Position numbers and translations under genes: made by a program
In this document: positions 36,318 through 39,234 of the stretch, one piece after another
How the letters are laid out: each line of letters starts with the position of its first letter
Position numbering within the stretch: the first letter of the stretch is position 1
Notes under the pieces: generated by a model
What the model was told of the DNA's origin: nothing
Seen by the model: only the letters and a program-made list of their open reading frames with translations
The model's database searches: none
DNA from: Pseudoalteromonas sp. FUC4
GTDB taxonomy: Bacteria > Pseudomonadota > Gammaproteobacteria > Enterobacterales > Alteromonadaceae
Direction of reading: 5' to 3'
NCBI RefSeq assembly: GCF_008370255.1
Contig: NZ_SEUI01000003.1
Span: 1-64,000, forward strand
DNA length: 64,000 nucleotides

Positions 36318-36986
36318 TTAAGCCTCTGGGTTAGTTTCGTCTGTGACTACTTCATCAGTAGGTGGTACAGCAATAACAGGCCCTAAAAACCATTCATCTA
36401 GCTTTTTAGCAACTTCTGGTAAGCCTGTGCCTTTTAATGATGAAAACGCATGAACTGTAATATCCCCATCAAGCGTGCTTAATTCACGACGAACTTGCAG
36501 TACTTGTGATTTACGAGGACCTTGCTTTAATTTGTCGGCCTTAGTTAATAGTGCTAATACTGGAATTTCACTACCAATAGCCCAATTAATTAAATCGCGG
36601 TCTAAATCTTTTAACGGATGACGAATATCCATTAAAATAACAATACCCTTTAAGCTTTGACGCTTTTGCAGATATTCACCTAGCGACTTCTGCCATTTCT
36701 TTTTCATTTCGATTGGCACTTTAGCAAAACCATAGCCTGGTAAATCGATAAGGCGCATATCGTCAACATCAGCTAAATCGAATGTATTAATTAGCTGAGT
36801 ACGTCCTGGAGTTTTACTTGTACGTGCTAGTTTTTGATCGGTTAATGCATTTAATGCACTCGACTTACCTGCGTTGGAGCGACCGGCAAACGCAACTTCA
36901 ATTCCCGTATCAGCAGGTAATTTAGTAATGTCGGGAGCGCTTGTTACGAAAGACGCAGTATTATATTTGATACGAGATTTGAGCAC
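36318..36986 (-). CDS. engB: ribosome biogenesis GTPase EngB (YihA/YsxC)
   Basis: 222 residues starting with GTG (AGGAG 8 bases upstream). It is a small GTPase needed for large-subunit assembly. The G motifs are [10 protein letters not shown] (G1), [11 protein letters not shown] (G2), [13 protein letters not shown] (G3), LTKADKL (G4) and SSLKGTGL (G5). The last 25 residues are an acidic, proline-rich tail longer than in E. coli. Its stop codon sits inside the hairpin CCAGAG/CTCTGG (36311-36316 / 36324-36329). It is convergent with yceI-DUF1285 and divergent from cytochrome c4. Confidence 0.95.
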
Positions 36987-37267: not shown

Positions 37268-37900
37268 ATGAAAAAAATAGCACTATCTTTAACAATATTG
37301 CTTGGTGCGTTGTCAGCAAGCAACGCAACAGCATTTGATGGCGATGTAAACGCAGGTAAAGAAAAATCAGCAACGTGTGCGGCTTGTCACGGCCCAGACG
37401 GTAATGCGCCGGTTAATATTTACCCTAAAATTGCAGGTCAACATCCAGATTATATCCTTAAGCAACTTCAGGATTTAAAATTAGGTATGACATCAGGCGG
37501 CAAAGAAGGGCGTATGGATCCAGTAATGAGCGCTATGGCTATGCCACTAAGCGAGCAAGACATGAAAGATCTAGCAGCTTATTTTTCTTCAATGAACATG
37601 TCTGAAGGTGCTACACCTAAAGATGTCGTTGAAGTAGGCGAAATGCTCTTTAAAGCAGGTGACGCAGAGCGTGGAATTCCATCATGTGCAGCATGTCATG
37701 GCCCACGTGGTAATGGCTCGTCACTGGCTAAGTTTCCAAAAATTTCTTTTCAGCATCCTGGATATATCAAGTCTCAACTTGAAAAGTTCCGTGATGGCAC
37801 TCGCCATAATGACTTAAATGGCATGATGGGCGACATTGCAAAGAAATTAACAGATAAAGACATTGAAGTACTATCTCAGTACTTAGGTGGCTTACACTAA
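37268..37900 (+). CDS. dihaem cytochrome c4
   Basis: 210 residues. The signal peptide ends near ATA-FD (about residue 22). Two homologous cytochrome domains follow, each with a haem site, CAACHGPDGNAP and CAACHGPRGNGSS. Met ligands are in the domain ends (MSAMAMPLSEQD, LNGMMGDIA). Such proteins pass electrons to terminal oxidases or nitrite reductase, membrane-associated in the periplasm. It is a single gene, closed by a terminator. Confidence 0.94.
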   Translation: MKKIALSLTILLGALSASNATAFDGDVNAGKEKSATCAACHGPDGNAPVNIYPKIAGQHPDYILKQLQDLKLGMTSGGKEGRMDPVMSAMAMPLSEQDMKDLAAYFSSMNMSEGATPKDVVEVGEMLFKAGDAERGIPSCAACHGPRGNGSSLAKFPKISFQHPGYIKSQLEKFRDGTRHNDLNGMMGDIAKKLTDKDIEVLSQYLGGLH

Positions 37901-37974: not shown

Positions 37975-38126
37975 GTGCCTATAATTAACGATATCACCCT
38001 TTTGTATGTAAGACATTGACTATGCTATCTTGTGAGAAAAGTCTTATTTTATTTTTAAATAATAAGCTAAGCTATTGTAATTTAACGTTTATGTGTTTTT
38101 TAAGTACAATAATTATAATAAAAGTT

Positions 38127-38478
38127 ATATAAATCAGTTGTAACAAAATTATTAACGAGTAAATTAACCCCTGTCGTAAAAACAATAACAAAACGGAAAC
38201 AGCTATAAGGAAAGTGGCGCGGCATGACTACATAGCACAAGATTGGTGCTACTAAAGGAAATAATAAAAAAGTGTCAGGATGACCGAAAATAATAAAAAA
38301 CTCATGGAAGTTTAATAATAAAAACAAAATGGAATGTAACAAGGAACGTAAAAATAATAACAATACGGACTGATAATAATAAAAATAATAAAGACTAAAA
38401 AAGTCGAAGGGAGAAGTGTCCAGATAATGGCGCTCAGATTAGCAGGCGGTAGAGATGTTTTCTCTACCGCCTTTTTAT
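38127..38478 (+). ncRNA. csrC: CsrB/CsrC-type CsrA-sequestering small RNA
   Basis: A non-coding, A-rich stretch between engB and yihI, where E. coli has csrC. It carries nine GGA motifs in 218 bases (38195, 38209, 38257, 38278, 38306, 38331, 38343, 38367, 38410), separated by AATAATAAAA-like linkers. Two are plainly in hairpin loops: GTCA-GGA-TGAC (38274-38284, containing the CsrA consensus CAGGATG) and AAACT-CATGGA-AGTTT (38298-38313). It ends in the strong terminator GGCGGTAGAGA/TCTCTACCGCC with TTTTTATTT. A perfect TATAAT (38114-38119) sets the likely start near 38126. TGTAAG at 38007 could be half a UvrY/GacA box. The RNA would titrate CsrA. Confidence 0.85.
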
Positions 38479-38480
38479 TT
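38446..38480 (+). terminator. terminator of the CsrC-type RNA
   Basis: GGCGGTAGAGA (about 38446-38455) pairs with TCTCTACCGCC (38461-38471) around a short loop of T residues, then TTTTTATTT. From here to yihI (38481-38649) I see no further gene or clear signal apart from a TTACAATACC promoter-like stretch near 38486. Confidence 0.93.
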
Positions 38481-38649: not shown

Positions 38650-39234
38650 ATGAGTAGAACTAAAAAGTCACGCAAAAGCCCAGCAAACGGACCTGTTCGT
38701 TTAAGCCAAGATAAGCTTAAAGAAATGCGCGCATTAAAAGAGCAGAGAGTTAAAAAAACCAAAGGCGCAAAGCCCGGTTCTCGTAATGCGCCAGATTTAC
38801 TTGATAGCGAAAGCCAAAATAGTAATCATGCGCCTAAAGATAAGCGTGTAGGCAGTAAAAAGCCTGTGCCGTTAATCGCAACCGCGCCTGAGCCTAAAGT
38901 TGAAATGAAACGCAACTTAAAGCCAACTATTGAGCTAAAAAAAGTAATCGAGCCTGAATTTACACCTGAACAAGAGCTAGAAGCACTTGAGAATGACGAA
39001 CGTTTACTTAAACTAGTAGAGCGTCATGAAAAAGGTGAAATGCTAACAGGTAAAGATGCTAAGTACTTCAATAGTCGCATTGCCCGTCATCAGGCGTTAT
39101 GTGAAATTCTTGGTATTGAAGATGAGGACGAAGACGAGTTTGAAGATGATATTGAAAGCAAAGGCAGCTCTGACTTCGATCAATACTTATCTGATGATTT
39201 AGCTAACGAATGGCTAGATGAAGACGACAAATAG
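38650..39234 (+). CDS. yihI: Der GTPase-activating protein YihI
   Basis: 194 residues (E. coli 169). The N-terminal third is basic and disordered (MSRTKKSRKSPAN, KKTKGAKPGSRNAPD). The conserved part has HAPKDKRVGSKKPVPL, then LEALENDERLLKLVERHEKGE and an acidic C-terminus (EDEDEDEFEDD). YihI stimulates the GTPase Der and so affects 50S assembly. It follows the CsrC-type RNA and precedes a DUF2489 gene, an order shared with related bacteria. Confidence 0.9.
   Translation: MSRTKKSRKSPANGPVRLSQDKLKEMRALKEQRVKKTKGAKPGSRNAPDLLDSESQNSNHAPKDKRVGSKKPVPLIATAPEPKVEMKRNLKPTIELKKVIEPEFTPEQELEALENDERLLKLVERHEKGEMLTGKDAKYFNSRIARHQALCEILGIEDEDEDEFEDDIESKGSSDFDQYLSDDLANEWLDEDDK

Follow-up and report, generated by a model that had tools for sequence, protein, structure and literature searches.

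A CsrA-sponge-type RNA upstream of yihI in Pseudoalteromonas, very probably an ortholog of Pf3, with conserved A-A-N triplet blocks

Three CsrA-sponge RNAs, Pf1, Pf2 and Pf3, carrying 25, 21 and 9 GGA motifs respectively, have been described in Pseudoalteromonas fuliginea BSW20308 (PMC9927453, PMC11882849, accessible text of both). According to the accessible text of the second paper, Pf3 bound CsrA in EMSA, gave the third-highest peak in CsrA RIP-seq of the wild type, raised glycogen when overexpressed in E. coli and has a promoter that drove GFP (PMC11882849). The same text places Pf3 between D172_RS16045 and D172_RS16040 and describes TAA- or AAT-rich repeats in the matches to Pf3 in the zebrafish genome (PMC11882849). 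It gives matches to Pf3 in 470 of 672 genomes (PMC11882849), fewer than the 108 of 108 genus genomes in which we found DNA matching the RNA described below. Its main text, as accessible, names neither yihI nor engB (PMC11882849). A different kind of titration is known for Hfq, the distal face of which binds A-R-N triplets. CrcZ of P. aeruginosa, which has six A-rich stretches, titrates Hfq, and the accessible text shows that a fragment containing three of them binds the distal face (PMC4063720).

We analysed a 64,000-nucleotide stretch of DNA from Pseudoalteromonas sp. FUC4 (contig NZ_SEUI01000003.1, positions 1 to 64,000; hereafter the window), in which an earlier note, made from the letters alone, had proposed a CsrB/CsrC-type RNA between engB and yihI. 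We conclude that the locus, which looks like the ancestral csrC position, encodes a CsrA-sponge-type RNA of about 340 nucleotides that is very probably orthologous to Pf3. We put the probability of this reading at about 0.92, a figure that allows for a partial elimination of other candidates. As such, the sponge RNA is very probably not new, having already appeared in print as Pf3 (2025); the conserved (AAN)n architecture of this known sponge is the new element here.

Gene neighbourhood and GGA motifs across the genus

The RNA lies at 38136-38480 on the + strand and could be aligned along its length in 80 distinct sequences, one of them from the window. Upstream, on the same strand, is a diheme cytochrome c gene (37268-37900; Pfam Cytochrom_C in two stretches), which we take to encode cytochrome c4, and downstream is yihI (38650-39234, +; NCBIfam NF003560 YihI, 143.3 bits against a cut-off of 90 bits). 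engB/yihA is found at 36318-36986 on the - strand (TIGR03598, 233.8 bits). The location between engB and yihI given in the earlier note thus holds in a wider sense, with the qualification that the cytochrome c gene intervenes between engB and the RNA. Positions 1-389 of the window hold a 5S rRNA gene and the end of a 23S rRNA gene.

Nine GGA motifs, putative CsrA sites, start at 38195, 38209, 38257, 38278, 38306, 38331, 38343, 38367 and 38410 and together occupy 38195-38412 (+), so that the count of nine in 218 bases, from first to last, was correct. A second stretch of at most 218 bases with nine GGAs was found on neither strand of the 64-kb window. By number alone, the motifs are mildly above shuffled sequence. 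Of 1000 shuffles of 38127-38478 by each method, 41 (dinucleotide) and 76 (single-base) reached nine GGAs, and the GGA count was reached by at most 10 of 200 shuffles in only 39 of the 80 sequences. The case is carried by conservation and not by the raw count. In order along the RNA, the nine motifs are kept in 80, 71, 49, 50, 79, 79, 52, 71 and 80 of the 80 sequences; four are therefore kept in 79 or 80 of them and three in only 49-52. The total varies between 8 and 11 in all 80 and is exactly nine in 53. Conservation in related genomes had been named in the earlier note as a test of its proposal, and across the genus set the motifs are indeed kept, at 8-11 per sequence.

DNA matching the RNA (E 1e-3 or better, some matches partial) was present in 108 of 108 genus genomes, the window's own included; the loci nearest by yihI, where named, are Pseudoalteromonas. 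At 102 of 103 genus loci, the match lay in the gap before yihI, and the remaining locus (L035) begins 4 bases before yihI. In most loci the match starts about 200-310 bases past the cytochrome gene. The set of 80 was drawn from 103 sequences (102 loci and the window) that matched at E 1e-10 or better, after removal of one cut sequence (L050), three in which the match is split in two (L073, L134 and L131) and exact duplicates. For tests of structure and phase, we used 27 of the 80, sharing less than 93% identity.

An apparent absence of the RNA from part of the genus was traced to a count limited to 800 bases upstream of yihI and was discarded; the RNA lies further off in those loci and was found once the whole gap was read. 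The gap between the cytochrome c gene and yihI measures 1229-1456 bases in seven loci (L122, L123, L124, L125, L126, L130 and L132) against 749 in the window, and the added length falls between the RNA terminator and yihI. In the three loci with split matches, the 5' and 3' pieces stand several hundred bases apart (positions 259-348 and 707-903 of the gap in L073 and L134; 263-362 and 851-1045 in L131), as if by an insertion into the RNA or a duplication with loss of a part.

The csrC position and the relation to Pf3

In E. coli MG1655, the gene order at this locus is yihA-csrC-yihI-hemN. To survey the order, we hand-picked 40 yihI loci, spread over families, from the 152 of 197 order-level genomes that gave a YihI match (the other 45 gave none). 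The 29 loci with both gap ends entered the strand test and the other 11 were left out. On the yihI strand, at least 8 GGAs per 260 nt occurred in 15 of the 29 gaps, compared with 0 of 29 on the opposite strand, and GGA density was higher on the yihI strand in 23 gaps, lower in 5 and equal in 1. Single-base shuffles were also beaten, at the level of 2 in 200, by only 7 of the 29. A GGA cluster was absent from four short gaps (135-273 bases) and from several longer ones (for example L157, L159 and L170). Together with the order in MG1655, the clusters on the yihI strand support the earlier proposal that this is the E. coli csrC position.

Sequence similarity to the window RNA fades quickly outside the genus. 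Weak matches (E 1e-4 to 7e-4) were found in 6 of 25 loci from other genera, including Rheinheimera and Alishewanella. Of 246 family genomes searched, 53 gave matches. Twelve of these belong to the genus; the matches in the remaining 41 were short pieces, mostly round the GGA/AAN part, some of which may be A-rich chance matches. We read the csrC position as one old locus of a fast-changing Csr RNA, on evidence of position and not of sequence homology. As judged from genome sequence, the survey supports a recurrence, in part of the order, of GGA-rich stretches on the yihI strand between engB (with or without the cytochrome c gene) and yihI; E. coli csrC is one of them, and the engB-yihI gap looks like the ancestral csrC position. 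Among publications screened by title or abstract opening, we found no report of a synteny link between csrC, yihA and yihI, and the accessible main text of a paper on Vibrio csrB synteny names neither yihI nor hemN (PMC6262261).

The earlier note had foreseen that a similarity search might miss the RNA. The Csr and Rsm families of Rfam gave no match to it, either at the gathering score or at E up to 10, and no Csr family reached the gathering score in any of the 39 order-level loci scanned (L185 was outside the scan). In the control, CsrC was found in the E. coli K-12 region, where E. coli CsrC scores 278.7 bits. A match to STnc130 (34.7 of 55 bits) was antisense and consisted mostly of A+T plus the terminator of the cytochrome gene; it was rejected, as were IS102 and the other sub-threshold Rfam matches. 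The recurring engB-(cyt c)-yihI position offers a similarity-free route to csrC-type RNAs where Rfam fails.

Pf3 was recognised by its number of GGAs, its AAT-rich repeats, its genus and the presence of 23-24 GGAs in two other dense AGGA clusters, and not by a match of locus tags. The window RNA is an intergenic Pseudoalteromonas RNA with nine GGAs and AAT-rich repeats. In P. fuliginea KMM 216 (L040), the same gap contains the same RNA, and exactly nine GGAs were counted within 800 bases upstream of yihI. An AGGA-triplet pattern occurred at 28 places in the genome, with hits clustering at two, and missed the window RNA. Elimination by this pattern is partial, since it rests on two clusters of 28 places and its backward control used the same word and was uninformative. 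In the literature searched, the Pf3 sRNA came up in PMC11882849 only.

The two clusters mark further Csr-type RNAs. The second Csr-type RNA of the genome (L119/L150; G000:C11:171900-172600, RNA near 172000-172400, - strand) has 23 GGAs in the stretch counted and is divergent from its neighbouring gene, the product of which is presumably an iron-transport binding protein, with the box TGTAAGAGATGTCTTACG between them. The third (L120; G000:C1:273300-273700, + strand) has 24 GGAs in the stretch counted and stands behind the box CGTGAGATATATCTTACA. Both boxes are of the GacA type with one mismatch each and lie upstream of these paralogs. With 24 and 23 GGAs, near 25 and 21, the two clusters fit the Pf1 and Pf2 types.

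Promoter region, helices and 3' module

The earlier note had described a perfect -10, TATAAT, at 38114. The hexamer is present, yet it is kept in only 6 of the 80 relatives and was rejected as the promoter. A conserved -10 hexamer is found at 38128-38133 (+), as TATAAA in 51 and TATTAA in 17 of the 80, and directly precedes the first conserved base of the RNA, 38136; judged from this -10, the true start of the RNA is probably at 38137-38141. No -35 element was established for the hexamer.

Further upstream is a UvrY/GacA-type box, TGTGAGAAAAGTCTTATT (38031-38048, +), with 2 mismatches to TGTNAGN6CTTACA. Across the 80 sequences, the box has 2 mismatches in 41, 3 in 25 and 4-5 in 14, and TGTRAG stands at its position (-105) in 56. 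The half-site TGTAAG at 38007-38012 (+), 24 bp before the box, had already been singled out in the earlier note; it is real, with TGTRAG at that position (-129) in 69 of 80, and the fuller box is the one at 38031. TGTRAG also occurs at -152 in 16 of 80, giving three positions spaced by about 24 bp, and, off this spacing, at -22 in 25 and at -70 in 16. Because two-mismatch boxes are common in the genome (569 forward and 560 reverse, against 385 and 370 for the control), the boxes are supported by their conservation and not by the match itself. The genome encodes one copy of csrA together with homologs of uvrY (67% identity across 211 of 218 aa) and barA (39% across residues 1-913 of 918), and UvrY may control the RNA. 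Judged by its sequence, the RNA has a promoter and an intrinsic terminator of its own.

In 14 of the 108 genus genomes, the promoter-proximal DNA at 38078-38116 recurs at one further site as copies of about 30-37 bases with 85-97% identity (G082:C48:42654-42684 is an example). The copies suggest a repeated upstream element.

Within the RNA, helix 1 pairs TGTCGT (38172-38177) with GCGGCA (38219-38224) and encloses GGA 1 and 2 (38172-38224, +); in the 27 sequences, 96.3% of its cells are paired and 2 of its 6 pairs show changes on both sides. Two clear GGA-loop hairpins had been noted earlier, and both are present in the sequence. GTC-AGGAT-GAC (38274-38284, +) presents GGA 4, and its three pairs are kept in 27 of 27 sequences, with one-sided changes only; no more than 50 of the 80 sequences have an aligned GGA in this loop. 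AACT-CATGGA-AGTT (38299-38312, +) presents GGA 5 and is absent from the consensus fold, so this second hairpin is weakly supported.

Towards the 3' end, a hairpin GACT...AGTC (38393-38405, +; 94.4% of cells paired) precedes an invariant GGGA, which in the consensus fold is unpaired between two conserved hairpins. The 3' module also contains the hairpin AGTGTC...GGCGCT (38415-38434, +), with 100% of cells paired in the 27 sequences and one-sided U-G/U-A changes. The strong terminator reported earlier is there, as an intrinsic terminator with a U tract (38444-38480, +); its stem (38444-38472) has 12 pairs, 7 of them G-C, and is followed by a T tail. Changes on both sides were seen in 5 of its 10 counted pairs. 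Over the five named helices, 98.3% of cells in the 27 sequences hold standard pairs. Changes on both sides occur in 8 of 29 pairs, against a shuffled mean of 1.0 and with 0 of 500 shuffles as high, a comparison that related sequences can exceed without structure, as the tool itself warns; five of the eight pairs sit in the terminator. A pairing of columns 24-28 with 416-420 in the consensus fold was implausible and was excluded before pairs were counted.

The stretch 38402-38443, AGTCGAAGGGAGAAGTGTC...CGCTC.GATTAG, is nearly invariant in both the 27 and the 80 aligned sequences. This invariance exceeds the apparent need of GGA binding and of the hairpin, and a further partner or a processing site is possible.

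The CsrB/CsrC-type class proposed in the earlier note is supported by the conservation of the GGAs, their position in loops or single strands, the promoter, the terminator and the probable ortholog Pf3. At the level of sequence, the RNA is conserved together with its GGAs, helices, terminator and upstream boxes, and homologs of CsrA, UvrY and BarA are encoded. These features suggest a mechanism in which BarA/UvrY would switch the RNA on through the TGTRAG boxes upstream of the conserved -10, and the RNA would present nine GGA sites (8-11 in the genus), in hairpin loops or single-stranded, to CsrA dimers. CsrA would be drawn off its mRNA targets, the expression of CsrA-controlled genes would change, and the strong intrinsic terminator would end transcription. 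CsrA binding is published for P. fuliginea Pf3 and would, by analogy, extend to this strain. We infer that the window RNA is the Pf3 ortholog, that it is transcribed and that UvrY controls it; the same holds for its precise limits and for how many CsrA dimers it binds.

A-A-N triplet blocks and comparison with described RNAs

The A-rich linkers of the RNA are (AAN)n triplets, arranged on the + strand in six blocks of 12-18 nt. Sequence and triplet tests identify block 1, (AAN)5 at 38178-38192, block 2, (AAN)4 at 38260-38271, and block 5, (AAN)5 at 38350-38364. Block 3, (AAN)4 at 38289-38300, has one phase-1 column that is A in only 7% of sequences; block 4, (AAN)5 at 38314-38328, shows the clearest invariant A-A-variable pattern; and block 6, (AAN)6 at 38375-38392, is missing in some of the 27 aligned sequences. 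To quantify the register, we counted how often successive non-A letters in A-rich tracts are spaced by a multiple of three. This was the case for 901 of 976 spacings in the 80 sequences, compared with 22 of 78 in the upstream gap on the same strand, 132 of 316 on its other strand, 60 of 158 in the rest of the window on the + strand and 79 of 243 on the - strand of the window. In the window RNA alone, all 13 of 13 spacings are multiples of three, which 0 of 300 random placements reached.

Variation between relatives follows the same phase. Where the window has A, relatives have another base in 90 of 269 cells at position 3 (33.5%), compared with 56 of 682 at position 1 (8.2%) and 41 of 718 at position 2 (5.7%), and position 3 was the most variable with each of the 27 sequences as the reference. 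These counts are of cells in related sequences and not of independent events, and single columns break the rule. AAN coverage was reached by at most 2 of 200 shuffles in 78 of the 80 sequences. Outside the genus, loci carry no more than three blocks of at least four triplets, and many have none. An origin as a microsatellite seems unlikely, since slippage would not protect the As of the first two triplet positions across diverged species. Csr sponges are known to change fast, and GGA is the only feature by which they are recognised; here, an A-A-N register is kept across the genus, and the two paralogs checked lack it.

What the blocks do can be read in several ways. Three-base periodicity with a freer third position resembles that of a coding gene, and relatives have stop-free + frames of up to 92 codons, so the triplets might be AAN codons of a small gene. 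The six blocks, however, lie in three frames (start mod 3: 0, 1, 0, 1, 1, 2), and the codon reading therefore fails; moreover, the longest stop-free + frame in the window RNA is 40 codons, and no + strand ORF of at least 60 aa is listed in the stretch, the one of 87 aa being antisense. We regard a coding gene as highly improbable and reject it. The linkers of a plain CsrA sponge would have no partner of their own and would only keep the GGAs single-stranded. A-rich linkers do prevent pairing, and CsrA binding of Pf3 is established in the accessible text (PMC11882849), which makes this account quite possible, if clearly below an even chance. Neither a triplet register nor variation concentrated at every third base would, however, be expected of linkers that only had to be unstructured, and the two paralog sponges manage without them.

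The register would have a function of its own if the RNA were a dual CsrA/Hfq sponge, an extension of the sponge/Pf3 reading in which six (AAN)4-6 tracts, serving the distal face of Hfq, are set among the nine GGA sites. One BarA/UvrY-driven RNA at the ancestral csrC locus would then titrate or bridge CsrA and Hfq and tune both. The spacing in the genus and in the window, the variable third position and an AAN coverage that shuffles rarely reach all favour this proposal, as does the restriction of AAN in the paralogs to one 9-nt run each and its absence as a block from E. coli CsrC. An Hfq-titrating RNA is expected to carry several (A-R-N)n tracts with n of at least 3, and the six blocks agree with this. 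CrcZ is a precedent, with six A-rich stretches accessible to the distal face of Hfq (accessible text of PMC4063720). Sub-threshold CrcZ matches fall inside the window RNA (RF01675, 17.3 bits against a gathering score of 95) and were kept as a lead only. Hfq is encoded, with G29, I30 and K31. Against the proposal, this Hfq has F at residue 25 in place of the Y25 of P. aeruginosa, the related RNAs in other genera carry no more than three blocks and often none, and the phase test counts cells that are not independent events. In addition, the accessible text of PMC11882849 does not report Hfq binding of Pf3, and Salmonella CsrC was not Hfq-enriched (63 control against 64 Hfq reads in the accessible text of PMC2515195), although E. 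coli CsrC is without such blocks. We hold the dual sponge tentatively, at rather less than even odds.

Alternatively, the CsrA sponge might double as an Hfq-dependent sRNA that acts by base pairing, with Hfq holding it at one or more AAN blocks and the U tail, and with mRNAs paired to its conserved 5' end (AGTTGTAAC...) or its 3' module. The 5' AGTTGT and GTA.ATTA are nearly invariant and contain no GGA, and all three Pf RNAs have been predicted to pair imperfectly with a few mRNAs (accessible text of PMC11882849). Six AAN blocks, however, exceed the need of one Hfq, and we consider this account unlikely.

If true, the dual CsrA/Hfq sponge would explain the AAT-rich repeats that the authors of the Pf3 paper left open. 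If Hfq reads the blocks, a single RNA with many sites for CsrA and for Hfq would link the two networks, and the (AAN)n architecture makes a direct test of Csr-Hfq coupling possible. Novelty is tempered by the existence of RNAs already known to bind both CsrA and Hfq. On Csr sponges with ARN motifs or Hfq, no literature concerning the window RNA was found by title or abstract opening, and the bodies of those papers may hold more.

Among described RNAs, CrcZ of Pseudomonas resembles the window RNA in its six A-rich stretches and in a weak Rfam score, and differs in that the window RNA is far below the RF01675 gathering score. We know of no role for CrcZ as a GGA sponge. Several of the sRNAs named as CsrA binders are Hfq sRNAs. 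Those named in the accessible text of PMC11882849 have one or two GGAs or none, unlike the window RNA. Spot 42, McaS, GadY and SgrS, and E. coli rrA/rrB/rrF (accessible text of PMC8144298), are known or predicted to bind both CsrA and Hfq, as the dual sponge would. CsrC of E. coli and Salmonella (RF00084), a CsrA antagonist, shares with the window RNA the yihA/engB-yihI gap, the yihI strand and many GGAs; it differs in that in E. coli no cytochrome c gene comes in between and CsrC has no (AAN)n block, and the window RNA in turn lacks an Rfam match. Aln1a-c of Alteromonas macleodii are likewise CsrA-antagonist-type sRNAs of a marine gammaproteobacterium with A(N)GGA motifs, and differ as three RNAs from one 404-nt gap, Te101_04650-Te101_04655 (accessible text of PMC5864184). 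The Pf1/Pf2-type paralogs are, like the window RNA, GGA-rich, with an upstream UvrY/GacA-type box and a terminator-like end; they differ in their 24 and 23 GGAs and are without AAT repeats. Pf3 of P. fuliginea BSW20308, for which the accessible text of PMC11882849 describes neither a triplet register nor Hfq binding, is the closest of these to the window RNA, matching it in genus, in its nine GGAs, in its AAT/TAA-rich repeats, in its terminator and in its intergenic position.
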